Assembly (NCBI GenBank): GCA_036874045.1
Contig: JAZBRI010000011.1
Location: 9,229,501-9,293,500 of the forward strand
DNA length: 64,000 nt
Direction of reading: 5' to 3'
Source: Cymodocea nodosa
Lineage: Eukaryota; Streptophyta; Magnoliopsida; Alismatales; Cymodoceaceae
The notes beneath the pieces are model-generated. The model ran no database searches and was not told the DNA's origin. It saw only the letters and a program-made list of their open reading frames with translations. Both the position numbers and the translations under genes were made by a program. Below are positions 8,928-63,000 of this stretch, in pieces; position 1 is the stretch's first letter, and each line of letters opens with the position of its first letter.

Positions 8928-8933
8928 AGTTTT

Positions 8934-16652: not shown

Positions 16653-16662
16653 TTATAAATAT
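16653..16662 (+). promoter_or_regulatory. Candidate TATA box upstream of gag, copy L
   Basis: TTATAAATAT lies in the context GCATTATAAATATAGAACAG, about 180 bases before the gag ATG. Copy M has the same context at 40520-40529. An internal promoter for gag would make sense given that gag lies downstream of pol here. Promoter activity is inferred. Confidence 0.5.
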
Positions 16663-16839
16663 AGAACAGAATGCTATTTACGAGTTACCAGCACTTAAGG
16701 AAAGAAAAGAAAATTCGTTAGGGAACTAGAAGGAGAAGTAGCTGATTCGACTTCATCTGTCAACAACTATTTACTGAGAACAAAGCTTTAGATTGATATG
16801 TAATTAATCTTCTACTATTTTACTTTATGTTAAGAGTTT

Positions 16840-18243
16840 ATGAGCACATGGACTCATTCTCCTAGCACTAAACGATTAGTAAGAACACCTACACAGGATT
16901 ATTCAACACAGAAGTGTACTGAAATATTTTCTAAATTGGACTTTAACGAAATCCTTAGGGTTGTAGCTAACATTTCTTTAAAAGAGAACGAAGATATGGG
17001 TGCTCTAGTAGAAAAACCATTAGGGGAAATTCTGTGTCCTGAATTAGTTGATGAACCTTCATGTATTTGATTGCTAAACTTTGAGGGAGATAGGTTTGAA
17101 TTGAAATCTAATTATATTAGTCAATTGCCACATTTTCATGGATTAGAAAGAGAGGATGCCTATTATCTCCTTAAAGAATTTAATGAAGTTTGTCAAATGA
17201 TGAAAATGCCGAACATGAGTATTGATGCTATTAAACTTAGATATATCCCTTTTGCTTTAAAAGACACAGCTAAGAGATGGTTATATACTCTATCGCTTGA
17301 TTCAATTTTTGCATGGACTAAATTTTATTCTGTTTTTCTAGAAAAATATTATCCAACTCATCAAACAATTAAAAAGAAAAAGGAAATATTAATGTGTAGC
17401 CAAAAATAGGGAGAATCATTCTAGAAATATTTTGAAAAATTTAAAGATTTACTAACTCAATGTCCATATCATGCAATGTGTAAAGCACAATTAATAGGTA
17501 TAATTTATGAAGGCATAGATGTTTCAACGAAATCTTTATTAGAATCTATTTATCAAAATGGATTTTTAAAATTGTGTAGTAAAGAAGCATGGGCATACTT
17601 AAAAAACTTTGCAAAAAGAACTACTTAGTGGGAAAACTTGGCTGAAGCTATTACAGATAAAAGAATATTGTCAAGGGAAATGCATGAAATAGATTCAAGT
17701 TCTATGCTTGAAGTTAAATTAACTGAGTTAACAAAGAAAATTGAGGATTTATCATTAAATCAAAAGCTAGCAGAAAAGAATGCAAATATTAATGACTTAG
17801 ATATTATTTATGCTAGAAACCAGAAAGATAACTTTGGAAATTCTTATAATCCTAATTGGAGAAATCACCCGAACCTATCTTGGAGAAATAACAATTTCCA
17901 AGGAGGAGAAAATATAAATGACAAAAATATAAGTTATGAAGCATTAATTGAACAAGAATCTAGAATAGAGAAGTTAGAAAAGATAATTCAACAATTAAAC
18001 AATCGTGTAGACCATGTATTTGGAAATGCTACCATTCAGAATTAAAATATGAATAGAAATATACCCCCTAGACAGAAGGAATCAATAGAAGTTAGACCTA
18101 CTAGAAGATTATCAATACAAGCAATGCCTAACCTTGTCAATAGAACTGTTAATGAAATTGATACCTCCTATGGGAGGGAAGTTGAATGTAGTAGTATAAC
18201 TGAAGCAACTATGTATAATATAGTAAGTAGGAAAAATATATAA
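16840..18243 (+). pseudogene. gag: gag of copy L (capsid/nucleocapsid-like, downstream of pol)
   Basis: A single frame of about 467 codons. It starts MSTWTHSP at 16840 and ends with TAA at 18241. The capsid core reads ISQLPHFHGLEREDAYYLL, then AIKLRYIPFALKDTAKRWLY and a helix with FYSVFLEKYYPTHQT: the retrotransposon gag fold typical of Athila. Further on come FGNSYNPNWRNHPNLSWRNN (about 17834-17890), an Athila signature, and a coiled coil (ESRIEKLEKIIQQLNNRVD). Gag would form the virus-like particle in the cytoplasm. Stops at 17068 (TGA for Arg), 17407, about 17428, about 17626 and 18043 fall mostly at Gln codons. No frameshift is needed. The odd point is position: canonical elements have gag 5' of pol, here it lies 3' of pol and ORFx. 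Confidence 0.88.
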
Positions 18244-18251
18244 AAAAAAAT

Positions 18252-18395
18252 GTAAGTTTAATTATAGTTAGTAGTATCGTAGAGTTATTACTTAACTCAA
18301 CGAACTAAGTTCATTGAGTTATGACCTAACTCCACGAGGGTAGGTAAGTAGCTATGTTAATTTTATCTCTATTAAATTTTGTTTATGTTATATAG
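18252..18395 (+). other. Candidate intron between gag and F-box gene, copy L
   Basis: GTAAGT at 18252 is a consensus plant splice donor. TTTGTTTATGTTATATAG ending at 18395 is an acceptor-like site, 11 bases before the F-box ATG. The 144-base interval contains one TAACTCAACG hairpin (18290-18340). Copy M (42123-42265) and copy R (minus, 46121-45977) keep the same donor with near-identical length, and both have a better acceptor, ATACAG. Splicing is inferred. Confidence 0.5.
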
Positions 18396-18406: not shown

Positions 18407-19547
18407 ATGGAATTGATGAAATTACCATTGGATGCACTCCGAGAAGTACTAAGTCACTTATTAGCTAAAGATCTATGCAGATTGTGTTGTGTGTCAAAGG
18501 AAATTAAAGAATGTGTAAAAGAAAAATATTTTCATGGATTACGAGTTGCAAAGATGACTAATATTAGAGATGGATTTTTATGGAAGTCATTTAATTGTAG
18601 TTCAATCAGCTATGAATATCTGAATATGAAAGAAACTATTGGAATTCCACCAAATACATTAGAAGTAATAGATCATATTATGGGAATAGATGAAGGATTG
18701 ATTGTTTATAGAACCAAACCAAGGTATGCAATTCTGTTACCCGATATTTTGATTAGAAATCCTATTACTAGAGAAGAATGGAATATAGGAAGGCCTAATA
18801 GATTTGAAGTACCAACTAAAAATTGTGGGTTACGTTAACATTTTCTAATAAAAATTTGACCATTCCTGAAAAATTGTATTACTAGAGACCAGTTGGAAAT
18901 TGGGATGATGATTTATGCTTAAGTGTGTATAATTTTCTAACTAGATCTTAGACTAAAAATACTATGATATATCTAGGACATAAAGCATTAATTAACAACA
19001 TACATGTCACACTTGATGGATATATATATATCTAATTACTGATATATTAGTTGCATTTAGATCTGATTTATACATAGTAAGCATAGATAGTTATAATGAT
19101 GACTTTATAGAAATATTGCCTGTACCTAGTAATATAACTGAACCACCATCTACAGAACATGATAAAATTCAATTAGGAGTATGGTATAATGAACATGATG
19201 ATCCTACTTTATGTTTGATAAGATGGTGGGATGAATTGATGAAATTTCAAATATGGATTATGAAAGACCTAAATGAATGGAAGTGGGAAGAGGAATATAT
19301 TGAAATATATGTAGAAATAGAAACAACTACATTATCTTGGAATAGAAAAGGATCCCTTTCTGCATTTCAATTTATTAATGGTAATATACTTATATTTAGT
19401 ATTGATAACATACTGCAAGTTTACAAGTTAGAAAAGAGAGCAAACTGCATTAAAACAGAATTAATAGTAAGAAGAATTATGCCTAAAAAGTTTGCTTAGA
19501 CTGACACATTTATTTCATTTGTCACTACTTTTCAATCATATTCTTAA
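18407..19547 (+). pseudogene. Retrotransposon-borne F-box protein gene, copy L
   Basis: Starts MELMKLPLDALREVLSHL, then KDLCRLCCVSKEIKECV: the N-terminal F-box (residues about 5-42), the Skp1-binding part of SCF ubiquitin ligases. The region after it resembles plant F-box-associated domains (GFLWKSF, then ILIRNPITREEWNIGRP, then LCLIRWWDELMKFQIWIMKD, then ILQVYKLEK). A one-base loss near 18833 shifts the frame, so the first part stops at 18838 and the rest reads in another frame from about 18840. A TAG at 19497 replaces a Trp retained in copy R, and the natural end is TAA at 19545. The full protein would be about 378 residues, usual for this class. It sits in the env-like position in all three copies. 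Its substrate cannot be read from the sequence. Confidence 0.82.
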
Positions 19548-21356
19548 ACTATGATTTTGTACTTTTAATGTTGTGTGTATTCTGTATTTATTTTTATAAA
19601 AAAAAAGAACAAAACAAACAAAATATCAATCCAATTTGTTGGTATCTATTCTGGGAAACCAATTGGCTTACTTGTGAGCCACCAAAGGCATATAAGCCTA
19701 GGTTCCACACAAGGCACTGATTTAACAATTTATGTTTTGTTGTTAAGTTGTTATTTTGTTATATATTATGCTTTTATGTGTGATTGAAAAGTTTTTCAAA
19801 ATCAAAAGTCAAATGATATTGAAGGAGATACAAAGAACAATGTATGTAATTGATTATTTATCTTGAATTTACTTTCAAACTCAGTTCATGGAGTTATTCA
19901 TTAACTCAATGAATTAAGTTTGTTGAGTTAGGTGCTAAGTCAACGAAACAATATTCATGCCTACTAATATTTTCTGTATTTACTGTAAAATCTTTTACAT
20001 TGAGAACAATGCAAAATGTAGGTATGGGAGGAGGTAATTAGATTAAATCCACGTAATCTTCTTAATTAGAGGAATTTGAATGGTGCTGCAAATTTCTACT
20101 GAAACTGAAATTTTTTTTATGAATTTGCTGTAACTAACTAGAATTTCCTATAACTATCTAATAATTGAAACTGTAAAAAAAAAAAACATTGTAACTGCTT
20201 GAATGTTATATTTAGAATCTTATACAAGATGCTACAAATTTTACTATTAATACAAATTTGGATATAGTATCTTATGTTTTTGCTGAATTTTACGAGTTTA
20301 ACAGTTTCATGATTTTAAAAAGAAATCAAAATGCTTAACTAAAATTTAGTAAATGATCTGAAATCCTGAAAGAATAGAAATGTTGATTTTTTGGATTAAA
20401 TGAGATGCATATGATCAAGGATACATTTAATTTGATTGATTAAACTTGTAGAATGATTTATGTGTAAATCTTATTAAACTATAGAAAAAGTATGAGCTTA
20501 TTGATATGGATTCATGTTTTCAGTAAATTATAGAAGCAGGATTATATGAGATTTGTGTTTTATTACATCTGTATTAATGAAATACGTATATATACTATGT
20601 TGAGAAAGAAAAAGAAAAGAAAAGAGAAAAACTTTGAGAGTTTATTGATTTGTTTGATAACGAGACTTTTGTACTTGAGTAGATAGGTATGTAAGGATTG
20701 TTGACCTGAAAAAAGACTTTTTAAATCTGGCAACCTAAGATTCTAATCAAATATGGGATTATTGACTGAAAGCTCGATACATGGGTACACTAGAAAACTC
20801 TTGTATAATTCAAGCTTTTCAAATTAACTTTTAAAGTACAAATATGTATATACTGTTTTGAAAAGATAAAAGTGTTTTGTGAAATATAGATATCTTTTGA
20901 ATCGAGTATATTTTCTATTATCTAAGATTATTGAAGTATGAATTTAGATTAGACTTTTGAAGTTGTTTATTTGAGATACAATTCATTATTCTTCTTGTTT
21001 TAATCATATTGAGTTGGATTGTGTTCTAATTCGTATGTACTTGAAATTTATTCTGGAAATCATATTGGAAAATTTAGGATAATAGATGTTGAAAAGAAAA
21101 ATGATAATATAATTACCACCTATGTGATTCTAATATATTTTGTATGTAATTTACATATGTTTAAATATATTTGCAGATTGAAGAGGAGAAAACAATGTTA
21201 AAATAGATTATTGAAAAATACAAAATATCTTTACATTAATCTAATCTATGTATTCTAAAGAAAAAATCAAGAATTAATTCTAGCACTTTAGAAAGTCCAA
21301 CTAGTTAGATCTTAGTAGTTTGCTAAGGGACTAGAAAAATTTAAGTATGGGGGAAG
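19548..21356 (+). other. 3' noncoding region and polypurine tract of copy L
   Basis: No gene is visible. It holds a TAACTCAACG hairpin at 19880-19945, a conserved block at 19985-20035 (TTTTACATTGAGAACAATGC, then TAGGTATGGGAGGAGG) typical of Athila-like elements, and a final purine tract TTTAAGTATGGGGGAAG ending at 21356. The last is the plus-strand primer at the LTR boundary. Segments such as GTAAGGATTGTTGACCTG near 20690 recur on the minus strand in copy R (about 43790-43880). A GAGAAAGAAAAAGAAAAG run lies near 20603. Confidence 0.75.
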
Positions 21357-23176
21357 TGTTTAGAATGAAAAAGTGTATAATATTAACGGTTAAATGATGG
21401 TTAATTGCATAATATTTAGCTTATCATATGAGAATTAAGACATTATGTTATAATTTCATTATTATATGCTTTAATGAAAGAATCTGCATAATTTCAGGAA
21501 ATTAGTGTTAATTAAGTACATTTCTGAACTATTGTGAATTACAAGCTTTTTAATTCCTAAGTCTCCGAATTTTCTGTTATTTCGAAGAGTTACATTTAAT
21601 GTACTAGATAGTTATGTTTTAAACGATAAAATAATATTTTATTATTTCTTAGAGGACACGTGTCACGTTCTAGAAACTTGACTTAAGTTATATTTCGGAA
21701 GGTTAGGTGCTAACTATCCAAAATACATATAAGTTTTAGATACTTATAGTTGTAACTATCCAAAACATTTGAACTCGTTATTTCTTTATTGCACATGTTT
21801 TATAGTTAAATCAACGAAGTAAGTCCGTTGAGTTACACTAACTCCACGAACCATTTATTTTCTAGCATGCTACTATAGCAATTGTAGAAACAAGAAATTC
21901 GAAGGAAAACAATGATTGCACGTATCATGTAAGAATTCACTCATGGAATGAAGAAGAAATCACCATCGTTGATATGAATGAAAGAAATCCAACTGATCAT
22001 TTAAGCAGAAGCAGTTACTACTAAAAGAAATATGAAAGAAGGGGAGAAACATGAAGAGGTGTGTGTGTAAAGGTGGATTACCACGCTAACTGCAGGAAGC
22101 ATTGGAAGTTCCCTAAAGCTTCACACGACCACCAAAATCACCAACCATTGGAGGTTTGTGAGGATACTTTTTGGATGTCGGGTCGATTTCGAGTCAAACA
22201 CGGTGACTGACAACCATTGTGAGGAGTGATCGCGTCGTAGGAAGGGAAGCCATTTTCACCAACCACCAACTCATATCTCAAGAGATCGTAAAGCTTCTAG
22301 CCTTGATTTCGTGTTGATGCTAGTATGCTGAAGAGGAGATCATCTTACAATTCTTGATTCGCGATTCTATAGGGAGAGGAGGCAAGATTGTAAGTGATTA
22401 AGTTTTCAGCAGTGTAATTATGTTACATGTAGTGACAGAAGTTTTTATTGTCGATAGAGATTTTTACATTTCACCTTTAGCTCATCTTTAGGAACATATC
22501 AAAACAAAAATACCAAAAACAACTAATTATCTGTGTTTACATTTAGTATTAAAGTGTTATATTATTTGCTTTGTATTGTGATTAATGTTATCATTGTCAA
22601 TATTATGAATGTTTTATGTTTATTTGATTCAGAAAATAGAAAATAGTTTTATTGTTTACTGAAATAGAATCGTTCTAGATACTTAAAGATTTTAATGGTT
22701 ACTGTTTGAAATATCTAAATATTAGTGTTGCTTAATGGCAAATCTAATATTAACTAACATTAAAGAGCTTAATTGATGTTATTTACATTCTATAGAACTA
22801 CCCAATGGTTGGTCGAATTTCTCTATAAATAATAGTATTTAACTAGAAAGTTAAGCTCGTGGAGTTTACTTAAGTCCACGAGGTTAGTCCATTGAGTTAA
22901 CCATAACTCCACGAACTAAGTCTATTGAGTTAATTGTAACTCAACGAAGTGCTTAACTGAACACAAATAAACTCCAATATAAAAATCAAAATAGTACACA
23001 ATTCTTACTTAATGTCTATGGGATCGACTTGTACTTACACACAAATACAATATACACTATGCACTTGTAGTTAAAATACAAATTGAACTTAATATCTAAT
23101 TTGTGTGAAAGGTTGTTTGTTTACTTCTAAAAGAATTTATTAATATAAGCATAAAAACAAATCAAATAACTTAACA
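21357..23176 (+). repeat. 3' LTR of the Athila-like element, copy L
   Basis: Begins TGTTTAGAATG right after the purine tract and ends ACTTAACA, about 1820 bases. Its 3' third matches the minus-strand LTR fragment at 62441-63000, including GGGATCGACTTGTACTTACA and TGCACTTGTAGTTAAAATAC. U3 carries an ABRE-like GACACGTGTCACG near 21656 and TAACTCAACG hairpins at 21805-21852 and 22850-22945. Its 5' part has a diverged counterpart at about 50650-51520 (minus) inside the copia B element. Confidence 0.82.
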
Positions 23177-23468
23177 ACCCCAAATAGGGACTCAAGGAAT
23201 AAACGTACCTTAGTTAAGGGAACCACTATAAATTGTCTATGTGCTTTTATCTCTGTTTCCTTTTTGCATTAACTAGATTTAAAAATGAGATCGAAAATTA
23301 GAAAATTTGCAATATACTTAATTCACTCCCCCTCTTAAGCATAAACCTTTCCTACAATCTAGTATTAGAGCTCTATTAGATCATTTTCTGCTAGGAAAGG
23401 TATTTTAAGATTTTTAAGTTTAAAATGGCTAATTTTGAAAGTAAAGGACACAATTTTCATAGGCCACC
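23177..23468 (+). mobile_element. Copia remnant: LTR 3' end, primer site and first codons of gag
   Basis: The CACTCCCCCTCTTAAGC stretch and the end CCTACA at 23356 look like a copia LTR terminus. It is followed by TAGTATTAGAGC (23360-23371), a two-base variant of the initiator tRNA-Met primer site. An ATG at 23425 opens MANFESKGHNFHRPP, the typical copia gag start. The remnant is cut at 23468 by the Tnt1-like element. No matching continuation is found beyond 36349, so the rest was lost. Confidence 0.65.
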
Positions 23469-39741: not shown

Positions 39742-39843
39742 TAAACTTAGGGTTAAAGGGCATTATCCATAGAATCATTTAGAACTTAGAACAGTAGAGA
39801 TTAGAGTGATTTTGTTCCATTGTGTAACTCCACGATGAGGAAG

Positions 39844-40705: not shown

Positions 40706-42104
40706 ATGAGCACATGGATTCATTCTCCTAGCACTAAACGATTAGTAAGAACACCTACATAGGATTCTTCAACACAGAGACGTACTGAAGTATTTTCTGA
40801 ATTATACTTTAATGAAATCGTTAGGGGTGTAGCTAACCTTTCTTTAAAAGAGAACGAAGATATGGTTGCTCCAATGGAGAAACCATTAGGGGAAATTTTG
40901 TATCCTGAATTAGTTGATGAACCTTCATGTATTCAATTGCCAAACTTTGAGGGAGATAGGTTTGAACTGAAATCTAATTATATTAGTCAATTGCCACATT
41001 TTCATGGATTAGAAAGAGAGGATGCCTATTATTTCCTTAGAGAATTTAACGAAGTTTGCCAAATGATGAAAATGCCGAACATGAGTATTGATGCTATTAA
41101 ACTTAGATATATCCCTTTTGCTTTAAAAGACACAGATAAGAGATGGTTATATACTCTATCGCCTGACTCAATTTCTGCATAGACTGAATTTTGCTCTATT
41201 TTTTTGGAAAAATATTATCCAACACATCAAACGATTAAAAAGAAGAAATAAATATTAATGTGTAGCCAAAAACAGGGAGAATCATTTTGAAATATTTTAA
41301 AAGATTTAAAGATTTACTGACTCAATGTCCACATCATGCAATGAGTAAAGCACAATTAATAGGTATAATTTATGAAGATATAGATGTTTCAACGAAATCT
41401 TTATTAGAATCTACTTGTTAGAATGGATTTTTAAAAATGTGTAGTGAAGAAGCATGGGCATATTTAGAAAACTTTGCAAAAAGAACTGCATAGTGGGAAA
41501 ACTCAACTAAAGCTATTACAAATAAAAGAATATTGCCAAGGGGAATGCATGAAATAGATTCAAGTACTATGCTTGAAATTAAATTAACTGAATTAACAAA
41601 GAAAATAGAAGAGTTATCATTAAATCAAAAGATAGTAGAAAAGAATGCAAACGTTAATAATTTAGATATTATTTATGCTAGAAACTAGAAAGATAACTTT
41701 GGAAATTCTTATAACCCTAATTGGAGAAATCACCCGAATTTATCTTGGAGAAACAACAATTTTTAGGGAGGAGAAAATATAAATGACAAAAATATAAGTT
41801 ATGAAGCTTTAATTAAACAAGGATCTAGAATAGAGAAATTAGAAAAGATAATCCAACAATTAAACAATCGTCTGGATCTTGTATTTGGAAATGCTGCAAT
41901 TCAAAACAAAATATAAATAGAAATATACCCCCTAGATAGAAGGAATCAATGGAAGTTAGACCTACTAGAGAATTGTCAATGCAAGCAATACCTAATCCTA
42001 TCAACAGAATTGTTAGTGAAATTGATACCTCCTCTAGGAGGGTAGCTGAATGAAACAGTATAACTGAAGTAACTATGTATAATATAGTAAGCAGAAAAAC
42101 ATAA
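40706..42104 (+). pseudogene. gag: gag, copy M
   Basis: ATG at 40706 (MSTWIHSPSTKRLVRTPT). The open part 40862-41182 covers the capsid core with QLPHFHGLEREDAYYFL and RYIPFALKDTDKRWLYTLS. A TAG at 41180 replaces Trp, and later one-base losses near 41285 shift the frame. The C-terminal NPNWRNHPNLSWRNN signature (about 41720-41755) and coiled coil are still recognisable. The end coincides with copy L relative to the donor site that follows. Confidence 0.85.
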
Positions 42105-42276
42105 AAATATAAAGAAAAAAATGTAAGTTTAATTATAGTTAGTAATATCGTAGAGTTATTACTTAACTTAACAAACTTAGTCCGTTGAGTTATGACCTAA
42201 CTCCACGAGGATGTGAAGTAGCTATGTTAATTTTGTCTCTGTTAATTTTTGTTTATGTTATACAGAATCACAATAG

Positions 42277-43038
42277 ATGGAATTGATGAAATTACCACTA
42301 GATGCACTAAGGGAAGTAATGAGTAACTTGTCAACTAAAGATCTGTGCAGATTGTGTTGTGTATCAAAGGAAATCAAAGATTGTGTTAGAGAAAAATATT
42401 TTCATGGACTACAAGCTGCAAAAATGACTAAGATTAGAAATGGATTTTTATGGAAGTCATTTAATTATAGTTCAATCTACTATGAATATTTGAATATGGA
42501 AGAAACTACTGGAATTCCACCCAATACATTAAAAGGAATAGATCATATTATGGGGATGGATGAAGGATTAATTATATACAGAACCAAACTAAGGTATGCA
42601 ATTCTGTTACCCGACATTTTGATTAGAAATCCTATCACAAGAGAATAATGGAATATAGGAAGACCTAATAGATATGAAGTACCAACTGAAAATTGTGGGT
42701 TAGCTTTAATATTTTCTGATAAAAGTTCGGCCATTCTTGAAAAATTATATTATTGGAGACCAACTAGAAATTGGGATGAAGATTTATGCTTAAGTGTGTA
42801 TAATTTTCTGAATAGATCTTAGACTGAAAATACTATGATATATCTAGAACAGAAATCATTAATTAACAACATGCATGTCATACTTGATGGATATATATAT
42901 CTAGTCACAATATATCAGTTGCATTTAGATCTGATTTATACATAGTAAGCATAGACAGTTATGATGATTTTATAGAAATATTACCTATATCGAGTGATAT
43001 AGCTAAACCACCGATTTCAGAATATGATCAAATTCAAG
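42277..43038 (+). pseudogene. F-box protein gene, copy M (3' truncated)
   Basis: MELMKLPLDALREVMSNLSTKDLCRLCCVS forms the F-box. The F-box-associated region follows to about residue 250. A TAA at 42646 replaces a Glu codon seen in the other copies, a TAG near 42819 a Trp, and an indel near 42908 shifts the frame. The gene is cut at about 43038 inside the segment that reads EYDQIQ, where the inverted copy R begins. A candidate intron (42123-42265) with donor GTAAGT and acceptor ATACAG precedes the ATG. Confidence 0.82.
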
Positions 43039-44828
43039 TATAACTCATTGAGTTAACTAACCTAACAAGTAAAACGCTGTCTAGAGGCAGTTTTACACAT
43101 TACCTTTTATAACATAATGTTCAGTTAGTACACTTTACTAAAAAACAAGTTTCAAATGCTTCTTTCCAAAGACAACACACATGCTACGCTTAACATTATC
43201 TTGAGAACAATGTAAACTATTCTAACATTCTCTTCATATGAATCTAAAATAGTTTGTTTGTCTTTTTAAATTGTTTCATCAAGATCTTAAGAGGACTTAA
43301 ATTTAGATTAACCAAGATTTTTATTCTGAATTATATTAATCTATTTTGGACATTGTTAAACCTACCCCTACAAATATACTTCTCATATATATTCAATAAC
43401 ATACAAAATATACTTGTATAACAATAGATGTTAAGTATAACTATACTTTTAAATTTTCTTTTCAGAAACTTCCATTATCCTGAATTCATCAAAAATGATT
43501 TCCAAAATCAATTCCTACTATATATGAATCAAAATACAACTTTGAACTCAATATGATTAATTCAAGGAGAATAAAAGAATGTATCTCACATAAACATTTT
43601 CAAAAGTACTAATGTTGATTCAATAAATCAGTAGTCATATTGGTAGAAACTATATTTGATTCAAAGATATCTGTAATTAATGAAACAACTTTTTCTTTTC
43701 AAAACAGTAAATATTGATAATTTTCTTTAAAAGTTAGTTTGAAAAGCTTGAATCATATAAGAGCTTTCTAATGTACCCGTGTAATGAGCTTTCAGTCAAC
43801 AATCCCAGATCTAGTCAAGACCTTAGGTTGCTAGATTTAAAGAATCCTTTTTCAGGACAACAATCCTTACATACCTATCTGCTCAAGTACAAAAGGCTCA
43901 TGATCAAATTGATCAATAAACTCTCAAAGATTTTCACTTTGTAAGAACTTTTCATTTTAAGCACAGTATATATGTATTCCATTAATACATATGCAATAAA
44001 ACACAAATCTCATATAATTTACTGAGTTTTAGTTAAGCATTCTATTTTCTTTTTAAAATCATGAAACTATTAAACTCATAAAATTCAGTAAAAACATAAG
44101 ATACTATATCTAGATTTGTATGAATAGTAAAATTTTGTATCATCTTATATAAGATTCTAAATATAACATTCAAGCAGTTATAGTTCTTAAAGATTTTACA
44201 ATCTCAATTATCAAATAGTTATAGCAAATTCATAAAAAAAATTTCAATGTCCATAAAACTTTTGCAGTACCATTCTAATTCCTTTAATTAACAAAATTAC
44301 ATGGTTGTTACTTTAATTACCTTCCCCCATACCTACATTTTGCATTATACTCAATGTAAAAGATTTTATAGTAAATATAATAATTGTAGCAGGCAGGAAT
44401 ATTGTTTCGTTGACTTAGCACCTAACTCAACGAACTTAATTCGTTGAATTAATGAATAACTCCCCAAACTGAGTTTAAATGTGAATTCAGGATAAGTAAT
44501 CAATTACATAACTTGTTCTTTTGTATCTCCTTCAATATCTTTTGATTTTTGATTCTGAAAAACTTTTCATTCACACATAAAAGTAGAATATATAACAAAA
44601 CATAACTTGTTAAATCAGTGTCTTGTGTGGAACCCAGGATCCTATGCCTTTGGTGGCTCACAAGCAAGCCAATTGGTTTCCCAGAATAGATACCAACAAA
44701 CTGGATTGAAATTTTGTTTTTTTTTTTCTTATAAAATAAAACTAAAACTAAAAAAAAAATTCTTTTCTTTTTCTTTTTTTCTAAAAATAAATGCAAAATA
44801 CACAACATTAAAAATACAAAATCACAAT
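43039..44828 (-). other. 3' noncoding region of copy R
   Basis: No gene. On the minus strand it carries CAACG hairpins (44405-44465, 43029-43055) and the conserved block at 44322-44367 (TTTTACATTGAG, AATGCAAAATGTAGG, TATGGGGGAAGG). Several stretches align with copy L 19548-21300. A homopurine/T-rich patch lies at 44720-44790. I do not see a clear LTR start before the junction with copy M. Confidence 0.65.
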
Positions 44829-45965
44829 TTAAGAACATGATTGAAAAGTAGTAACAAATGGAATAAACGTGTTAGTCCATGCAAACTTTTTAGGTGTAAT
44901 TCTTCTTGCTATTAATTCTATTTTAATGCAGTCTGTTTTCCTTTTTAGCTTGTAAACTTGCAGTATGTTATCAATACTAAATATAAGTGTATTTCCATTA
45001 ATGAAATGAAATGCAGAAAGGGATCCTCATTTGTTCCAAAATAATATAGTTATTTCTATTTCTACATCTATTTCAATATATTCCTCTTCCCACTTCCATT
45101 CATTTAGGTCTTTTATAATCCATATTTGAAATTTCCTCAATTCATCCCACCATCTTATCAGACATAAAGTAGGATCATCATATTCATTATACCACATTCC
45201 TAATTGAATTTTATCATATTCTGAAGATGGTGGTTTAGCTATATCACTCGGAATAACTAATATTTCTATAAAATCATCATAACTATCTATGCTTACTATG
45301 TATAAATCAGATTTAAATGCAACTGATATATCTGTGACTAGATATATATATCTATCAAGTATGACATGTATGTTGTTAATTAATGCTCTCTGTCCTAGAT
45401 ATATCATAGTATTTTCAGTCCAAGATCTATCTAGAAAATCATACACACTTAAGCATAAATCTTCATCCCAATTTCTAGTTGGTCTCTAATAATTTAATTT
45501 TTTAGGAATGGTCAAATTTTTATTAGAAAATGTTAAAGCTGACCCACAATTTTCAGTTGGTACTTCAATTCTATTAGGCCTTCCTATATTCCATTCTTCT
45601 CTTGTGATAGAATTTCTAATCAAAATATTAGGTAACAAAATTGCATACCTTGGTTTGGTTTTGTAAATAATCAATCCTTCATCCATCCCCATAATATAAT
45701 CTACTCTTTCTAATGTATTGGGTGGAATTCCAACAGTTTCTTCCATATTCAAATATTCATAGCTGATTGAACTACGATTAAATGACTTCCATAAAAATTC
45801 ATCTCTAATCTTAGTCATTTTTGTAGCTTGTAGTCCATGAAAATATTTTTCTCTATCATAGTCTTTAATTTCCTTTAATACACAACACAATCTACACAGA
45901 TCTTTAGCTGACAGGTTACTCAGTACTTCCCTCAGTACATCTTGTGGTAATTTCATCAATTCCAT
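44829..45965 (-). pseudogene. F-box protein gene, copy R (most complete copy)
   Basis: Start at 45965 (MELMKLPQDVLREVL), chosen because all three copies begin there just after the acceptor-like ATACAG. Stop TAA at 44831-44829, giving 378 residues with no frameshift. The F-box is LSAKDLCRLCCVLKEIKDYD-like (residues about 5-42). The F-box-associated part includes LLPNILIRNSITREEWNIGR, LCLIRWWDELRKFQIWIIKD and ILQVYKL. Two in-frame stops remain: TAG at 45488-45486 (Trp) and TGA at 45029-45027. In plants such proteins recruit substrates to SCF ubiquitin ligases. The target is unknown. Candidate intron 46121-45977 precedes it. Confidence 0.85.
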
Positions 45966-46134: not shown

Positions 46135-46569
46135 TATATATTTTCTTTTTATATTTACTATATTATACATAGTTATTTTAGTTATACTTCTTCATTCAGC
46201 TTCCCTCTTATAGGAGGTATCAATTTCATTAATAGTTCTATTGACAGGGTTAGGTACTGCTTACATTGGTAATCCTATAGTAGGTCTAACTTCTATTGAT
46301 TCCTTCTATCTAGGGGGTATATTTCTATTCATATTTTGATTTTGAATGGCAACATTTCCAAATACAAGATCTAGATGATTGTTTAATTGTTGGATTATCT
46401 TTTCTAATTTCTCTATTCTAGATCCTTGTTCAATTAACGCTTCATAACTTATATTTTTGTCATTTATATTTTCTCCTCCTTGGAAATTGTTGTTTCTCCA
46501 AGATAGATTCGGGTGATTTCTTCAATTAGGGTTATAAGAATTTCCAAAGTTATCTTTCTGGTTTCTAGC
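46135..46569 (-). pseudogene. gag: gag C-terminal part, copy R
   Basis: On the minus strand it continues gag after the copia insertion with ARNQKDNFGNS-like sequence, NPNWRNHPNLSWRNN, and the coiled coil, to about 46135. It joins the N-terminal part at 55121 when the insertion and one ATAAA are removed. The GTAAGT donor follows at 46121. Confidence 0.82.
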
Positions 46570-46574
46570 ATAAA

Positions 46575-47765
46575 TGTAGGATCATCTATATCACAAGAGG
46601 GGGGTGAATTGTGTCTGTAGTAATTAAAATACTAGTGGATAAAACAAGAGCACAAAACACTCGTAAATGAAATTCTATTCTTTATGTAAAGACAGAATTT
46701 ACAATATCTTTCAACTCAATTCCCTTCTTGAAGGTTTTGATATAGTAATGTTCGATATACAATTCAAATAGAAAAATAAAGCTCTTATTCAAAACTAATT
46801 TTGAGTTGTATAAAACCTAATCTTTATGCACACAGCTTCTTTCCTTCTCTTTGCTCAGCTTCTATATCTTTTCTTCTCCAATTGTCGAATTTCCAAACTT
46901 CTTACATTTGTAGCTCCTTTTCTGAAATTGCTTGGAATTTCGAACTTCTTTTGATGTTGGAGAACTTTTCAGAATATGAATATTCAAACTTAACTTTTCA
47001 GTTAGGGATCCGGATTGAATATTTAGACTTGGTTTTTAAGATTGGGATCCTCTGTTGTAATGTAGCTCGTACTCTCTATTAGTAATCGAACTTTGTTATC
47101 TTTCACGTTCAGCATGTTCATCCATTTAATCCATAATCCACGTACTAATTTTTTTCATTAATCCAAATTACTATCTTTTTGAGTTTCCACTTTCTCCACT
47201 ATAATTTTGAATTTCCACGATCTCCACTCGCAGATTCATTGAAACTTTATCTTCCTGGAGTCTTATAAAATATCTTCTAAGTCTTTGATTTAGTCGAACA
47301 CTTATCCTTTAAGTCCTGTAAAACTCGAACACTTATCTATAACTCATCGAGTTTTTACACCTGCAAAACACATGACTAAACATAGCAAACTTATCTGTTC
47401 ATTAGTCATTTTATAAAACTCGAAGACTTATCTATCCATGCGTATAAAAACTTGAATAGTTATCTAATTATTTGATTTTCATTACCGAATGCACATGGAA
47501 AACACGTGACAACTTAAAACATTAAAAACACACGTGCAGATAACTTGACTATACGAGTTTTTAACATAAACTATTCGACAAAAATGAACTATTAAATATC
47601 CAAAAGTTTAACTATCGAAAATCTAACTCTTCAGAAATCTTTAACTTATCTGACATAAAAATGAAACTTTTCGATAATCTATTAACTATTATACTTAGAG
47701 AATATTATTTAGACTTATTTAAAAACTTTAATAAAGCATATATCATCAAAACAAAATTCCTAACA
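46575..47765 (-). repeat. 3' LTR of copia family B
   Basis: On the minus strand it starts TGTTAGGAATTTTG and ends GATGATCCTACA. It contains pairs of AACTCGAA and TTCGAGTT and CACGTG boxes near 47503 and 47531. It matches 5572-6789 in full. Confidence 0.9.
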
Positions 47766-47779
47766 ATCTCCCCCTTTTT
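47766..47779 (-). other. Polypurine tract of copia family B
   Basis: On the minus strand TAAAAAGGGGGAGAT abuts the LTR start. This is the standard copia/SIRE plus-strand primer. Confidence 0.85.
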
Positions 47780-48036
47780 AATGATGTCAAAACCTAATAA
47801 GTCAAATAATCTATCTCTTCTCCCCCTTTTTGGCATTATAAAAAAGTAAATAAAATGTAAGGAAGAAAAATATTCTATGTACATATTGTTAAAAAAGTTA
47901 TTTTTAGACATGCATAACTTTCATGGATTAAGCATAAGCTGTTTAAATATCAACTATAAAAAAAAATAATCACGTGAGCATTAAATGCAATAAACAGTTG
48001 ACATAATATTTTTGGTTACAAATTACAAGAAATAAA

Positions 48037-50624: not shown

Positions 50625-50639
50625 TGTCAATTAATCTTC

Positions 50640-55115: not shown

Positions 55116-55120
55116 ATAAA

Positions 55121-55914
55121 TAATATCTAAATCATTAACATTGGCATTCTTTTCTACTAGCTTCTGATTTAATGATAACTCTTCTATTTTCTTTGTTAAT
55201 TCACTTAATTTAACTTCAAGCATAGTGCTTGAATCTATTTCATGCATTCCCCTTGGCAATATTTTTTTATCTGTAATAGCTTCAGCCGAGTTTTCCCACT
55301 ATGAAATTCTTTTTTCAAAGTTTTCTAAGTATGCCCATGCTTCTTCACTACACAGTTTTAAAAATCCATTCTGACAAATAGATTCTAATAAAGATTTCGT
55401 TGAAACATCTATGCCTTCATAAATTATACCTATTAATTGTGCTTTACTCATTGCATGATGTGGACATTGAGTTAGTAAATCTTTAAATCTTTCAAAATAT
55501 TTTCAAAATGATTCTCCCTATTTTTGGCTACACATTAATATTTCCTTTTTGTTTTTAATTGTTTGATGTGTCAGATAATATTTTTCTAGAAAAACAGAGC
55601 AAGATTCAGTCCATGTAGAAATTAAATCAGGTGACAGAGTATATAACCATCTCTTAGCTGTGTCTTTTAATGCAAAAGGGATATATGTAAGTTTAATAGC
55701 ATCTATATTCATGTTCGGCATTTTCATCATTTGACAAACTTCGTTAAATTCTCTAAGAAAATAATAGGCATCCTCTCTTTCTAATCCATGAAAGTGTGGT
55801 AATTGACTAATATAATTAGATTTCAATTCAAACCTATCTCCCTCAAAGTTTGGCAATCGAATACATGAAGGTTCATCAACTAATTTAGGATATAGAATTT
55901 CCCCTAATGGCTTA
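55121..55914 (-). pseudogene. gag: gag N-terminal part, copy R
   Basis: Begins at the junction with ORFx (KPLGEILYPKLVDEPSCI), then the capsid core QLPHFHGLEREDAYYFL and YIPFALKDTAKRWLYTLS to a TAG at 55520-55518 (Gln). After that it continues to the insertion point at 55120. The first 60 or so gag codons present in copies L and M are missing. Confidence 0.83.
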
Positions 55915-56858
55915 TCCTTAGAATCGAATAGCAGGTTTACAAAAATTGGCTCTATAGGCCCTACTGATATTTGCATCTCAGATTTAATCTCTTCTTGATG
56001 TTCAGGCACTATCTTTTTTCCTTTCCTTCTTCTAATTAATTGTGCCTGGTCTTCCTCTTCTTCTTCTAAGATTAAATCTACAAAAATAGGTTGTGTAGGC
56101 CTTTGAGCCACAAGTACTGGCTCTTCTTGTTTAACTTTTTTTATAATTATTGGTCTCGAATGACCAGCTTCAACTCCTCTTGTAGTAAGTATGGCAGTGG
56201 CTTCTTGATGCTATTCCACTTTAATTTTGTATTGAACCTTCAACTTTTCTACAGCCCTCTTTTTGCACCATGCATCAAACACCATATGTGCTATAGTTAC
56301 CGCCAACTCTTCTGGTTCTCCTTGGTCTTTTCCAACTTGAACTAGTTCTTGAAATTCTCTTAATTCTTCCTTAGTAGAAGGCCCCAAAATTGCTACTCTT
56401 TCTATTAGCCTTGGTAGTAGAACTGAAGGTCTAGGCTGCTGTTCCTTAGGGACAGGTCTTTTAGCAGTCGACTCCTCTTGCTCTTTAGTTGCTTGTTCTT
56501 CATTTCCTTTCCTTTGTTGCTCCTAGATTGCCCACTGAGCCCATCTACCTATGCATGTTTTGAACTAGAGTCAAGACTTACGTTGGATCAATTCTAGGGC
56601 AACTTCATTATTTGACCTAATTCGTCTTTCTCTATTTACGGCAACTTCTATTGCTACTCTGATTCTTGTTTTCATAATCTAAGGTATTTTTATGCCTAAA
56701 TCAACTAACACTTTTCTCTAGTAAAAAAGGTCAGATTCTACCTTTTGTAGTTCTTATTCCCTCATCATATTTTTGATCTTCTATATTATTTTCCATTCTT
56801 CTGAATCTTTAAGAAATTCTGACGTGTCAACTACGTCCTCCAAAAATTCTAGTGTCAT
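55915..56858 (-). pseudogene. ORFx N-terminal half, copy R, fused to gag
   Basis: ATG at 56858 opens MTLEFLEDVVDTSEFLKD. The frame continues through VNRERRIRSNNEVALELIQ, a Gln/Glu-rich stretch and PIFVDLILEEEEEDQAQLIR (56080-56030). At about 55914 it passes in frame into gag, producing a 197-codon hybrid ORF (56111-55518). Stops near 56715, 56570 and 56211 are at Gln or Trp codons. The C-terminal plant transposon protein domain and the gag promoter are deleted. Confidence 0.72.
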
Positions 56859-57619: not shown

Positions 57620-59209
57620 TACTAAGTAAAGCTCGAGTAGTCCTCTACTCTTACTTCTTCTATAATTCCAAAGGAACTTTTGGTATTTTTAAAATAGGTC
57701 TAAGTCTTTGTCCATTTACTTTAAATATATTCTGATTTTTAGTATTTTCAATTTCAATAACTCCATAGGGATAAATATTTTGAATTATGTAAGGTCCTAC
57801 CCATCTAGATTTTAATTTTCTTGGATGGTTATGAAGTTTAGTCATGTAAAGATATACTTCTTGTTCTATTTCAAAGCTTTTTGGAATAATTTTCTTGTCA
57901 TGCCAGAACTGCCCTTTCTCTTTTACTCTTACAATTTTCGAATAAGCTTCATTCCTAAATTCTTCCAATTCAATCAATTGCATTTTCCTATTTTTAGTAG
58001 CTTGATTTAAATTACTGTTCAGAATTTTTAATGCCCAATAAGCTTTATGTTCAATTACAACTAGTAAATGACAACTTTTTCCATATACTAACCTAAAAGG
58101 TGACATACCTAAGCTTGTCTTATAAGCAGTTCTATAAGCCCAAAGTGCATCTATCAATCTATTAGCCCAATCTATTCTAGTAGGATTCACTACTTTTTCT
58201 AAGATTAACTTAATTTGTTTGTTTGCACTCTGTACTTGTCCACTTGTTTGCGGATGATATGATGTTGCAATTTTATGATTTACTCTATATTTCTTCATTA
58301 AGGCTTTAAAACTATTATTACATAAATTAGTTCCTCTATCACTGATAATAACTTTAGGTATTCCAAATCTGTTAATTATATTAGTTCTTATAAAATGTAT
58401 TACCACTTTGTTGTCATTAGTTTTTGTAGATATAGTTTTTATCCATTTAGATACATAATCCACCCCCAACAGTATATAATGAAATTGATTAGACATAGGA
58501 AATGGACCCATAAAATCTATTCCCCACACATCAAAGATTTCAACCTCAACAATAGAATTAAGAGGCATCATATTCCTCTTTGATATTCTTCCTATTTGTT
58601 GACATCTTAAACAACCTAAGCAATATTTATGAGCATATTTGAATAGTGTTGGCCAATAAAAGCCACATTGTAGAATTTTGGTAGTAATTTTCCCTGAACC
58701 AAAATGCCCTCCACATACTTGGCCATGGCAGAAACACAATATGCTCTAATATTCAGTTTCTAGAACACACCTCCTTAAAACCAGATCAGGACATTTCTTA
58801 AATAAGTATCGGTCTTCCCAATAGTAATATTTTACTCTTGAAAAGAACAATTTCTTATCCTGTCTATTCCAATCCTTAGGTGTTAAACCAGTAACTAAGT
58901 AATTAACTATGTTTGCATACTAAGGTATTGTATTGATGGTCATTAATTGTTCATTAGGAAAATTATCCTTAATTTCAATATTTGATTTTTCTATTTATAA
59001 TCTTGATAAATGATCTGCTACTACATTCTCACAACCTTTTTTATCATTAATTTCTAGATCAAATTCTTGTAATAATAATATCCATCAGATCAATCTAGGT
59101 TTAGTCTCTTTCTTTGCTATTAGGTGTTTTAAAGCTAAATGATCCGTGTCTACTATCACTTTAGCTCCAATCAAATATGATCTAAACTTTTCTAAGGCAA
59201 ACACAACAG
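57620..59209 (-). pseudogene. pol: RNase H and integrase part of pol, copy R
   Basis: After a one-base loss near 59215 the frame shifts. RNase H continues with [10 protein letters not shown]-like and [11 protein letters not shown]-like sequence. From 58739 the integrase is open for 359 codons: [14 protein letters not shown] with [12 protein letters not shown] (zinc region), [64 protein letters not shown], and a tail [18 protein letters not shown] with NGQRLRPIL. This is the best preserved integrase in the window. It ends near 57620 with the same DYSSF stretch as copy L. Confidence 0.9.
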
Positions 59210-60478
59210 CTAACAGCTCTTTTCAGTAGCTGTATAATTAACTTGAGCATCATATAAGGTTTTGTTTGCATAATGAATCACTCTAGGAGATTTGTCTATC
59301 TTCTTTCCTAGCACTGCTCCTATAGTAAAATTAGATGCATCGCACATTAATTCAAATGGATGGCTCCAATCAAGTGCTTGTAATATAGGAGTTGAAATTA
59401 AGCTAGTTTTAAGCTTGAAAAATGCTTCTTTGCATTTTTTATCAAAGTTAAATGAGACATCTTTTAATAGATTAGTTAAAGGTCTAGCTATTTCGCTAAA
59501 ATCTTTAATAAATCTTCTATAAAATCCAACATGTCTTGGAAATGATCTAATATCTTTTACTGATTTAGATTCTGGTAGATTAGAAATTACTTCTATTTTA
59601 GCTTTATCTAGTTCCAACCCTTTCTTTAAAACAACATGTCCCAAGACTATTCCTTGTTTAACCATGAAGTGACATTTTTCCCAATTTAGAACTAAACTTT
59701 TTTCCACACAGTGTTTTAATATTTGGTCTAAATTGTTTAAACACACTTCATATGAAGTTCCATAAATAGTAAAATCATCCATAAATATTTCTAAAAAATC
59801 TTCTGTCATTCTAGTGAATATGCCCTGCATACACCTTTGAAAGGTGGCTGGTGCATTGCATAATCCGAATGACATTCTCTTAAAAGCATAAGTTCCATTA
59901 GGACAGGTGAAAGTCATTTTCTCTTGATCCTCTAATGCTACTAAAATTTGATTATAACCTGAATACCCGTCTAGGAAATAAAAATATTCTTGCCTTGCTA
60001 ATCTTTCCAGCATTTGATCTATAAAAGGTAAGGAAAAATGATCTTTCCTAATCACAGCGTTCAGCTTTCTATAGTCTATACACACTCTCCAGCCTGATTG
60101 AATTCTAGTAGGTATCAAGTCCTAACTTTCATTCCTAATAACTGTTAATCCTGATTTCTTGGGAACTACATGGATTGGACTAACCCATGAGCTATCAGAA
60201 ATCAGATAAATTATGTCATTATCTAACCATTTCACTATTTCCTTCCTAACTACTTCTTTATGGTTTGGATTTAATCTTCTCTCAAGAATTGTAACTAGTT
60301 TAGCATTCTCTTCTAAATATATGTGGTGACAACATAAAGTTGAACTTAACCCTTTTATATCAGTCATAGTCCATCCTATTGCTTCTTTATAAGTTTTTAC
60401 TACATCTTTTATTTTAGCAATTTGATCTTCTTTTAAACCTAAAGCAATAATGATTGGACATGTTCGTTTTTCTTCCAA
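59210..60478 (-). pseudogene. pol: Reverse transcriptase part of pol, copy R
   Basis: One frame with a single stop at 60121-60119 (TAG or TAA where Gln is expected). It contains YLISDSSWVSPIHVVPKKSG, WRVCIDYRKLNAVIRKDHF, LDGYSGYNQILVALEDQEK, GLCNAPATFQRCMQGIF and the intact catalytic FMDDF (59771-59785), then the start of RNase H ([18 protein letters not shown]). Copy L 1-1290 is the equivalent. Confidence 0.92.
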
Positions 60479-60583: not shown

Positions 60584-61222
60584 TTAATCTCCTTCTAAAT
60601 TTATGCTTTCACTTTCTCCTAAATTTTCAAAATTTAGTTGCCTATTTAGTTCTTGAATCACATCATCTAGCATATCTCCTTCATCCTCTAAAAAGTCTAT
60701 AGTATGTAAGGACATTTCTAACTCCTCAAACTTTTCTGGTTTGAAAATATTTAATTGAGTATCCTCATTACCATATGCTAACTTCATTACTCCAGTTTTA
60801 CAATTTATAACAACCCTTGATGTTGCCAAGAATGGCCTTCCCAAGATTAAAGATGTATCACGATTTTTATGCTTAATTTGTTGGGAATCCAAAATTACAA
60901 TATCAATAGGATATATGAAGTTTTTGATTTTAATTAAGACATCCTCTATTTTTCCTCTAGCATATCTTATACTTCTATCAGCTAATTGAATAACAATCCT
61001 AATAGGAATTAAGCCTTCTAATCCTAAAGATGCAAATATATCACTCGGCATAACATTTATACCTGCACCTAGGTCTATTAAGGTTCTTTCTAGAATGGTA
61101 TTTCCTATGGTGCATGATATAACAGGGATTCTAGGATCAGATAACTTTTTAGGAATTTGTGGCAGAAATAGGGAACTACTTTGCTTAGCTAAAAAGACTT
61201 TCCCTAAAACTTTTCGCTTCAT
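60584..61222 (-). pseudogene. pol: Aspartic protease region of pol, copy R
   Basis: Contains LPQIPKKLSDPRIPVISCTI, the active-site stretch LIDLGAGINVMPSDIFASLG (DLGA in place of D[ST]G, as usual in Athila), IQLADRSIRYARG, and the flap-side motif SLILGRPFLATSRVVINC. The protease would release gag and pol products. It is open for 212 codons and in the same frame as RT, with stops between them near 60583 and 60553. Confidence 0.88.
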
Positions 61223-62149
61223 TTTCTTAATACACCAATCCTTAAGCTATTTAGCACAAGGTGACATTTTCTGTAATAAGTCTAACAAAGGAATGTTAAC
61301 TTGTACTTTTTCAAAAATTTCTCTAATTTTTTCTTATTTTTTAGGAAATGTTTGTTGTAATCTTTCAGGATAGAGTGCTAATGATTGTGATTTAAAAGAT
61401 TATTTTTCTTTCATTTGATTTGTTTGATCATTTTTAGTCTCATTTTTAGATTTAGATTTTTCTTCATTGATTTCTACATTTTCAGATATTACATTTTCAT
61501 TATCATTTTGATTTTTGTTCTTATCCACCTTCATATTACTTTCTTTTTCAATTCTTGGTGGTATATCAGTTCCAGATCTTAATGTAATACATACATCTTC
61601 CAAATTTTCGTTGCTTTCATGATGTTCTTGTATTTCATTTTCGTGATTATGATCTTCAACTGTTTTTAGTTTTAAATTGCATTCTTTAAATTCTATTGCA
61701 TTGGTATTTTCTTTTGTTTGTATGTCTTGCAAATCTGTAACATTAAAATTTTCATTTGCGTTGTCCTGTTGCATAACTTATAATTTCATTGTAAATTTGA
61801 CCAATGCTTTTAATTTTCTTTCTAGATCATCTAATCTCATTGCATTCAATTTTTGATCAATTTTCATTATGGTTTTTTTAGTTTCGTAAATGATATCAAT
61901 TTTAGGTTCTGAATATTCTTCCTTATAGTTTAATTGGTTGACTTCTTGTTGCTGCCACATGTATTATTCCAGTTTGTCCATGTTTTGCTCTAAGTTGCAC
62001 TCCAGTCTGTCATACCTATCCCAAACTTCCTTGTCTCTCAACATATTACACATTCTAAACTAACCATCAGTTGGGTAAACCATAGGATTCTCTTACTCAG
62101 CTCTATTATATTGAAGATAATTCATTTGTTGTTCATGTGATCTAACCAT
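61223..62149 (-). pseudogene. Start of the first ORF of copy R: gag-linker without capsid
   Basis: First ATG after the primer site is at 62149 (MVRSHEQQMNYLQYNRAE), in frame with protease and RT. It contains LDDLERKLKAL and VCITLRSGTDIPPRIEKES, the segment that in Athila-type elements lies between nucleocapsid and protease, then YPERLQQTFPKK. The capsid core (FHGLE...WLY) and the NWRNHPN signature are absent here and are found downstream of ORFx instead. Stops near 62093, 62063, 61968, 61777 and 61399 interrupt it. Confidence 0.7.
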
Positions 62150-62400: not shown

Positions 62401-62419
62401 GTCGCTGGCAACGGTGCCA
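62401..62419 (-). other. Primer binding site, tRNA-Asp type, copy R
   Basis: On the minus strand TGGCACCGTTGCCAGCGAC begins 21 bases after the LTR end at 62441. The first 14 bases are the same as in the LARD-like element (8934). It matches the complement of the tRNA-Asp 3' end with a few changes. Confidence 0.87.
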
Positions 62420-62440
62420 GAAATGCTTGTTCTTGGGTTT

Positions 62441-63000
62441 TGTTAACTTCTATTTTTAAACTTGTTTAATTTGTCTTTATGCTTATATAAATAATTACTT
62501 TTAGAAGTAAACTAACAACCTTTCACACAAATTAGATATTAATTCCAATTTGTATTTTAACTGCAAGTGCACAATGTATATTGTATTTGTGTGCAAGTAT
62601 AGGTCGATCCCATAGAAAATTGAGTAAGAATTGTTTACTATTCCATTTTTTTTATATTAGACTTAATGTGTTCAATAATCACTTTGTTGAGTTACAGTTA
62701 ACACAACGGACTAAGTTCGTAAAGTTATGGCTAACTCAACGGACTAACCTTGTGGACTTAAGTTAACTCCACAAGCTTATCTTTCTAGTTAAATATTGTT
62801 AATTACAAAGGAATTCGGCCAACCATTAGGCAGTTCTAGAGATTGTAAATAACATCAATTAAGCTCTTTAATGCTAGTTAAGATTAGATTTATCATTAAG
62901 CAACACTAACATTCAAATATTTCAAACAGTAACCATTAAAATCTTTAAGTATTTGGAACAAATCAATTTCAGTAAACTGTAAAACTATTTTCTATTTTCG
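62441..63000 (-). repeat. 5' LTR fragment of copy R
   Basis: The 3' 560 bases of the Athila-like LTR, ending GAAGTTAACA on the minus strand. It matches copy L 22620-23176, including the hairpins at 62685-62775 and TGCACTTGCAGTTAAAATAC. It stops abruptly at 63000 within TTTTCTATTTTC, where a copia LTR begins. Confidence 0.85.

Follow-up and report, generated by a model that had tools for sequence, protein, structure and literature searches.

An F-box gene beside gag in three copies of an Athila-like retrotransposon family from Cymodocea nodosa

Introduction

F-box proteins mark which proteins the cell destroys, via SCF ubiquitin ligases, and a plant gene of this kind lying inside a retrotransposon raises the question of whether it served the element or travelled with it as a passenger. 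Such a gene is present three times in a stretch of 64,000 nucleotides from Cymodocea nodosa (contig JAZBRI010000011.1, positions 9,229,501 to 9,293,500), referred to here as the window, in three element copies designated L, M and R. LTR retrotransposons are described as rarely fixing extra host-type domains (PMC9289625); the same source screened 121 angiosperm genomes, in which 15 extra domains of LTR retrotransposons passed its filter, and the term 'F-box' is absent from its main text. We describe the state of the F-box gene, the anatomy and lineage of the element around it and the selection acting on it, and weigh the explanations for its presence.

Results

The F-box gene and its state

The F-box gene occupies 44829..45965 on the minus strand in copy R, 18407..19547 on the plus strand in copy L and 42277..43040 on the plus strand in copy M, where homology ends near 43040; for all three copies the coordinates given in a sequence-only reading of the window proved exact. 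The F-box assignment made in that reading was borne out by profile search, as all copies exceed the PF00646 gathering score of 20.5 bits, with 29.0 bits in R (E 8.8e-7), 38.8 in L (7e-10) and 43.5 in M (2.4e-11). The accompanying claim of an F-box-associated part held in a weaker form: copy R matches NCBIfam TIGR01640 (F_box_assoc_1) colinearly, from model position 73 to 192–217 of 232, at 18.5–21.3 bits (E 1.4e-4 to 9.7e-4; 20.5 bits and 2.5e-4 for the gene as listed at 44829..45965), which is below the cut-off of 37.9. Two pieces of copy L and two of copy M gave no match to this model, and the rest of the F-box protein matched no Pfam family at E up to 10.

All three copies of the F-box element in the window are dead. 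The frame of copy R, which lacks introns, comprises 378 codons and a final stop with two premature stops and no frameshifts, just as had been read. Copy L leaves the frame after codon 143 and has further lesions, and copy M, of which the 5′ two thirds are present and the rest is cut off, has premature stops and a frame break; both are more damaged than R. Premature stops fall at five positions of the R frame. Three are seen in a single copy only, two of them at places missing from M; R and L have one position in common, L and M another. The two shared positions conflict, so that at least one arose twice or passed between templates. Since 52 of 119 singleton differences in the F-box (44%) are C-to-T or G-to-A, repeated hits are likely, and a broken mobile template is still compatible with the pattern; some mobile templates could already have been broken. 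Stop-creating differences from R to L number three where 8.0 are expected (P 0.034), and those between R and M two against 3.9, which is not significant. This R–L deficit, together with the presence of only two premature stops in the 378 codons of R, indicates that the frame was probably open in the active ancestor.

Anatomy of the element and order of its genes

Self-comparison and piecewise alignment show that L, M and R share one arrangement: integrase is followed by a noncoding gap, part of an open reading frame termed here ORF-X, gag, a spacer and the F-box. The F-box has homologous flanks in all three copies, as previously claimed, with identities of 89.6–92.3% in the C-terminal part of gag, 87.2–90.3% in the gag–F-box spacer and 88.4–91.0% in the F-box itself. 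In copy L gag ends 163 bp before the F-box, close to the 165 bases or so first noted (the gag frame is broken in M and R).

The 5′ end of the element is visible in R and the 3′ end in L, no copy being complete within the window. In copy R, on the minus strand, the 3′ part of the 5′ LTR (62424..62999), cut by a copia-type insertion, is followed by a primer binding site of tRNA-Asp type (62402..62419), with three mismatches in 18 and no equal in 100 shuffles, and then by a short ORF with an LRSG linker (61403..61774; ORF list, profile scan and tblastn) that lacks a gag core. There follow protease (60587..61222; PF13650 2.6e-4, below cut-off), reverse transcriptase with the start of RNase H (59213..60118; PF00078 1.7e-28) and integrase (57663..58739; PF00665 6.3e-13). 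In copy L, pol spans position 1 to about 2872 on the plus strand and includes reverse transcriptase, RNase H and the zinc part of integrase at 404..2020; tblastn places the integrases of L and M at 1751-2812 and 37988-39049.

The gene next to the F-box is a true gag. In copy L it lies directly 5′ of the F-box (16996..18243, plus strand; PF03732 7e-16 on 16996-17811). In copy R, on the minus strand, the core (55116..55916; PF03732 1.5e-16), in frame with the preceding tail of the extra ORF, is separated from the 3′ part (46198..46575) by a nested element at 46576-55115. The gag of copy M (40862..42046, plus strand, end approximate), located by tblastn, matches PF03732 in its first part at 4.2e-4, below cut-off. 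Across the window tblastn found gag in these three copies only, each time downstream of integrase, and none between the primer site and protease of copy R. Integrase and gag are about 1.7–1.8 kb apart in M and R and 14 kb apart in L, where the interval holds nested elements at 3600-5040, 5572-6789 and 6790-14083.

Beyond the F-box, copy L continues with a noncoding tail (19548..21344, plus strand) that is homologous to R 44826-43322 up to 21227, a polypurine tract recognizable by sequence (GTATGGGGGAAG, 21345..21356, plus strand) and the 3′ LTR (21357..23190, plus strand, end approximate), which starts with TG. Near the end of this LTR 541 bases (22632-23172) match R 62999-62459, 5′ of the primer site, with 86.8% identity. 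A sequence like GTATGGGGGAAG also stands immediately 5′ of the 3′ LTR of a nested LTR element. The tail of copy R (43322..44828, minus strand) reaches the junction with M; the two copies stand head to head, the junction falls between 43040 and 43322, and the F-box of M is cut there. Within the F-box tail there is a second sequence resembling a polypurine tract, GGTATGGGGGAAGG at R 44333-44320 (minus strand) and GGTATGGGAGGAGG at L 20021-20034, far from the LTR; a central tract or a fossil LTR edge are possible interpretations.

The first part of ORF-X lies at 56452..56856 (minus strand) in R, 5041-5404 in L and 39841-40250 in M, and is marked by third-position excess. No other piece diverges as much in the pairs that include L; its codons are nevertheless constrained about as much as those of gag (N/S 0.34–0.54 of the neutral expectation), so that ORF-X was probably an important gene of the element. 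The later part in copy L (14108..15737, plus strand) includes a Transposase_32-like domain at 15053-15604 (PF20167 1.6e-5, 25.3 bits against a cut-off of 45, with no PF03078 hit). Because a PF20167-like domain at its end recalls the 3′ extra ORF of sunflower Athila, the env-like place is, by this likeness, held by ORF-X, with gag and the F-box coming after it. The sequence-only reading had placed the F-box in the env-like position; the F-box does lie 3′ of pol, but an Athila-type extra ORF and gag sit between it and integrase, and the F-box has not simply taken the place of the env-like ORF, which persists in L ahead of gag and the F-box.

A leader block precedes gag in L (15741..16995, plus strand, with TATAAATA at 16654 and three palindromes) and in M (40251-40861); in R none was found, and in M the later part of ORF-X could not be located, which makes the three copies structurally different. 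An F-box common to all of them, inside an Athila-like family, implies that capture preceded amplification, in agreement with the earlier proposal. The motif TATAAATA occurs 18 times in the window on both strands. A reading of the sequence between integrase and gag as an LTR within a tandem array was rejected after the LTR proper was located at L 21357-23190 and R 62999-62424, and the interval consists instead of noncoding gap, ORF-X and leader. A duplication of the leader was likewise rejected, the pre-gag leader matching the 5′ leader of R no better than shuffled sequences (24 of 200 shuffles did equally well in M and 75 of 200 in L). The window gave no matches in Rfam or tRNA scans.

Two of the nested elements can be described further. 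That at 6790-14083, in the ORF-X region of L, has LTRs of about 2.1 kb that are 96.8% identical, a tRNA-Asp-type primer site at 8934, flanking CCTAA repeats that form a target-site duplication and an interior of about 3 kb with no listed ORF of at least 120 amino acids. That at 46576-55115, in the gag of R, contains a Transposase_32-like ORF (48424-48960, minus strand) 40% identical to ORF-X of L, which adjoins a zinc-knuckle sequence that appears copia-type.

A palindrome marking noncoding segments of the element

With up to four mismatches allowed, the window has 22 separate sites of a 29-nt palindrome, TAACTCMACGAANNWAGTYCRTKGAGTTA, spread from 3290 to 62732 (among them 16246, 18293, 19902, 22904, 39630, 42164, 44423, 46052, 57051 and 62732). 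All 22 lie in noncoding segments of the F-box element as bounded here and none elsewhere in the window: seven in the post-integrase gap, five in the leader, three in the gag–F-box spacer (18293..18321, plus strand, in copy L), two in the F-box tail and five in the LTR. At up to three mismatches there are 32 strand-wise matches, compared with none in 100 shuffles. Since the palindrome stands on both sides of the F-box in L and R, it places the gene inside the element independently of the alignments. RNA folding predicts hairpins with z below −3 for six of eight palindrome stretches folded. By eye, the post-integrase gap (39067-39838, 56857-57655) also has many short ATCGGTTCAACCGAT-like palindromes, a second motif family.

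Likeness to the Athila lineage

Pfam domains follow the order reverse transcriptase, RNase H, integrase in L (404-2020) and R (60118-57663). In the 102 residues between RNase H and the integrase zinc domain (frame 824-2020) Pfam gave no further hit at E up to 0.01, and hence no second RNase H. As absence of a second, archaeal-type RNase H sets Athila apart from Tat (PMC6317226), the single RNase H fits Athila. The tRNA-Asp primer site at 62419-62402 is a further Athila-type feature, copy R being the only one to show that end in the window. Among the best 120 reverse transcriptase relatives listed, which are 61–70% identical, the named ones come from several plant families, except for one labelled as a bacterial bin. 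The element departs from the order GAG-PROT-RT-RH-INT, by which Ty3/gypsy elements are classified (PMC6317226), in that all gag loci found are downstream of integrase.

Divergence and selection

Between R and L the F-box has diverged by 10.7%, compared with 15.8% in the tail, 19.4% in the post-integrase gap, 9.2% in integrase, 8.0% in reverse transcriptase and 7.6% in the first part of gag; indels per kb are, in the same order, 2.6, 17.5, 21.1, 0.8, 0.6 and 0. The F-box therefore lies below the two noncoding segments both in substitutions (p 1.5e-4 against the tail, 2.1e-7 against the gap) and in indels (p 1.8e-4 and 1.2e-4), and does not differ from integrase (p 0.27 and 0.37). It has evolved faster than reverse transcriptase in R–L (p 0.019), than integrase in L–M (p 0.018) and than the first part of gag in both R–L (p 0.026) and L–M (p 0.033). 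The indel tests for R–M and L–M were set aside because the truncation of M is scored as one indel of 370 bases in the F-box rows. The gag–F-box spacer (226–232 bases compared, mostly noncoding, the first part being gag frame in L) is about as diverged as the F-box, at 12.8, 10.3 and 9.7% in R–L, R–M and L–M against 10.7, 9.0 and 11.6%, though it has more indels per kb (8.8–12.9).

N/S ratios were scored against a neutral simulation with the noncoding substitution spectrum, since NG86 dN/dS and plain codon-position counts could not be trusted alone, wrong-frame controls being mostly below 1 (0.32 to 1.22). For the F-box this Ka/Ks comparison gave a divided answer: ratios are 0.61–0.68 of neutral in R–L (P 0.015–0.03) and 0.51–0.53 in L–M (P 0.003–0.004), and 1.03–1.05 in R–M (P 0.62–0.66). 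Integrase gives 0.68–0.70 in R–L, 0.66 in L–M and 0.96–1.03 in R–M, and gag 0.29–0.45 in its first part and 0.33–0.55 in its second. The noncoding controls stand at 1.13 in the tail and 0.71–0.84 in the post-integrase gap; as the latter is below 1, part of the F-box signal may be a bias of the method. The F-box shows weak purifying selection, about as strong as that on integrase, in two of the three pairs of copies; the remaining pair shows none, and the sign of constraint is modest overall. It seems to behave much like integrase, a gene the element surely used, although some of the deviation may be bias. The LTRs of the element nested in the gag of R are about 92% identical, which shows that the copies are old, and much of the F-box divergence is thus post-insertion decay that would dilute any signal.

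Possible expression

In each copy an intron-like stretch of 143–145 bases with consensus-like ends precedes the F-box ATG (L 18252..18395, plus strand; M 42123-42265; R 46121-45977). The donor-like GTAAGTTTA is common to all three, and the acceptor-like sequence, TTATACAG in R and M and a weaker TTATATAG (with TAG) in L, is the sole site in each spacer to pass our heuristic, 11 bases 5′ of the ATG in all three copies. GTAAGTTTA occurs four times in the window, three of them at the F-box spacers, and TTATA[CT]AG five times, again with three at the spacers; further donor-like sites are present in the spacers of L and R. Because the acceptor heuristic has a background of 2.4–3.0 sites per kb, the intron-like stretch is suggestive only. 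In the active element the F-box protein would probably have been translated from an RNA that was spliced or had an internal start. In barley Bagy2, a 3′ ORF has been reported to be spliced (PMC7264820).

Searches for the donor gene

In the protein database, 938 and 3285 candidates that shared words with the query included no donor of the F-box at E up to 10, although plants are represented there, as a search with the reverse transcriptase returned plant proteins. A sequence comparison of the F-box with PDB gave nothing, and of 79, 6 and 38 pattern matches in contigs of viruses and prokaryotes none could be confirmed.

Discussion

The F-box domain, its place inside the element and its presence in three copies are observed; what the gene did is a matter of interpretation. 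The explanation we favour, to which we give slightly better than even odds, is that an Athila-like element captured an F-box gene which once served it as an SCF adaptor. This Ty3/gypsy element would have acquired, ahead of its amplification, a plant gene combining an F-box with an F-box-associated part, and retained it next to gag as one of its own genes. Its order, as assembled from the three copies, is 5′ LTR, primer site, short ORF, PR-RT-RH-INT, Athila-type extra ORF, gag, F-box, noncoding tail, polypurine tract and 3′ LTR. In the active element the F-box would most likely have bound the host SKP1-cullin core, and the C-terminal part would have held one protein that was then ubiquitinated and destroyed, presumably to the benefit of the element; the F-box protein itself would probably have come from the spliced or internally started RNA. 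The gene may have been retained as a working gene for part of the history of the family. If so, retrotransposons, like some plant viruses, can exploit host ubiquitin ligases, and the target of the protein would point to a host restraint on transposons.

The strongest competitor, which we regard as possible but doubtful, is that one active element transduced a host F-box gene, which then multiplied along with the element but was never of use to it, the good state of the frame reflecting a recent intact start. Captured host genes are common in plant LTR retrotransposons, many in rice being pseudogenes (PMC3726574), and the F-box of a flax copia element has been interpreted as a case of transduplication (PMC5142383). 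The absence of constraint in R–M, the two shared stop positions and a spacer as well conserved as the F-box all suit a passenger. They have to be set against an F-box better kept than the tail and the post-integrase gap of the same copies in substitutions and indels alike, against the reduced N/S of L–M and R–L (0.51–0.68 of neutral, P 0.003–0.03) and against its survival in three structurally different copies.

We think it rather unlikely that the half carrying gag and the F-box is a non-autonomous element in its own right (LTR-leader-gag-F-box-LTR), which lay in tandem downstream of an element with pol, and that the two were later copied as a unit or segmentally duplicated. This arrangement would account for the odd gene order, pol before gag becoming an accident of neighbours, and in L and M the extra ORF and gag are indeed separated by a leader-like block that has a TATA-like box. 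Beyond short palindromes, however, the junction in L has no match to the family LTR, and the likeness of the junction to the R leader does not rise above the shuffles (24 of 200 in M, 75 of 200 in L). The halves are moreover complementary rather than duplicated in the window, with one gag per unit and none near the R primer site, and all three units have the same order.

An extended form of the favoured explanation goes further: a rearranged lineage, with PR-RT-RH-INT, the extra ORF, a separately expressed 3′ module of gag and F-box and palindrome-marked gaps, would use its own SCF adaptor, under selection, against a restraining host protein. Taken in its entirety we judge this unlikely.

The order of gag after pol departs from the GAG-PROT-RT-RH-INT used for Ty3/gypsy classification. 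In a large survey, candidates whose domains came in an unexpected order were all discarded as likely wrong predictions (PMC6317226), so that elements with gag after pol could have been overlooked.

Improbable, in our view, is the more specific idea that the F-box protein was a silencing suppressor acting on ARGONAUTE in the manner of polerovirus P0. Plant RNA and DNA viruses use the F-box proteins P0 and Clink (PMC3588083), and weaker silencing would profit an element. The element protein nevertheless has a long F-box-associated-like part, where P0 is described as without typical C-terminal repeats (PMC3588083), and in one polerovirus the SKP1 contact of P0 is reported not to be directly required for suppression (PMC6593998). 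Finally, a host F-box gene lying beside unrelated retroelement pieces by chance, conceivable in a region dense with nested elements, is refuted for this window: all three copies, one of them inverted, have the same gag-side junction, L and R have a common tail, and the palindromes of the element stand on both sides.

Comparison with known systems

The host proteins most similar in kind are the plant F-box/FBA proteins (PF00646 with TIGR01640), which share an N-terminal F-box followed by an F-box-associated-like part and with which the intronless frame of R can be compared; the present gene differs in being retrotransposon-borne, and the searches made found no host relative. Polerovirus P0 and nanovirus Clink (PMC3588083, PMC6593998) are likewise F-box proteins of replicating genetic parasites of plants, although they belong to viruses and not to a retrotransposon, and the comparison is one of kind, not of sequence.

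Among retrotransposons, the element resembles the Athila lineage in its RT-RH-INT order without a second RNase H, in a 3′ extra ORF of copy L whose PF20167-like domain, below cut-off, recalls sunflower Athila 14 (PMC11728184), and in a tRNA-Asp primer site that follows the LTR by a few bases, an arrangement known from Diaspora and Calypso (PMC1142308); it differs in having gag after pol and the extra ORF, and then an F-box gene. Among the literature matches listed, with few subscription journals covered, we saw no element with gag after pol and no gypsy family with a fixed F-box; a query for elements with pol ahead of gag led to one unrelated paper, and passages of PMC6035169 and PMC3852528 describe nothing closer than the flax and Thlaspi cases considered below.

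Ty3/gypsy elements of Phalaenopsis with an AlkB m6A demethylase ORF (PMC9289625) are alike in that a host-type domain has been fixed as an extra ORF in a large gypsy lineage, interpreted in that case as a counter to host control; theirs is a 2-ODD protein with in vitro activity, and ours an F-box in an element with gag downstream of pol. Bs1 and other LTR retrotransposons with captured genes (PMC13317346, PMC3726574) also have a host gene inside or beside the element, and Thlaspi arvense has an F-box-family 'LTR-gene' (PMC8764390). Compared with these, the present family has a whole F-box frame at a constant position in its three diverged copies. The closest likeness in content is a Ty1-copia element of flax whose LTRs enclose an F-box protein (PMC5142383), a plant LTR retrotransposon with a captured F-box gene, so that such capture is not new in itself. 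That case is one copia element, treated in a few sentences, whereas the F-box gene described here lies beside gag in three diverged copies of a Ty3/gypsy family and bears some mark of constraint.
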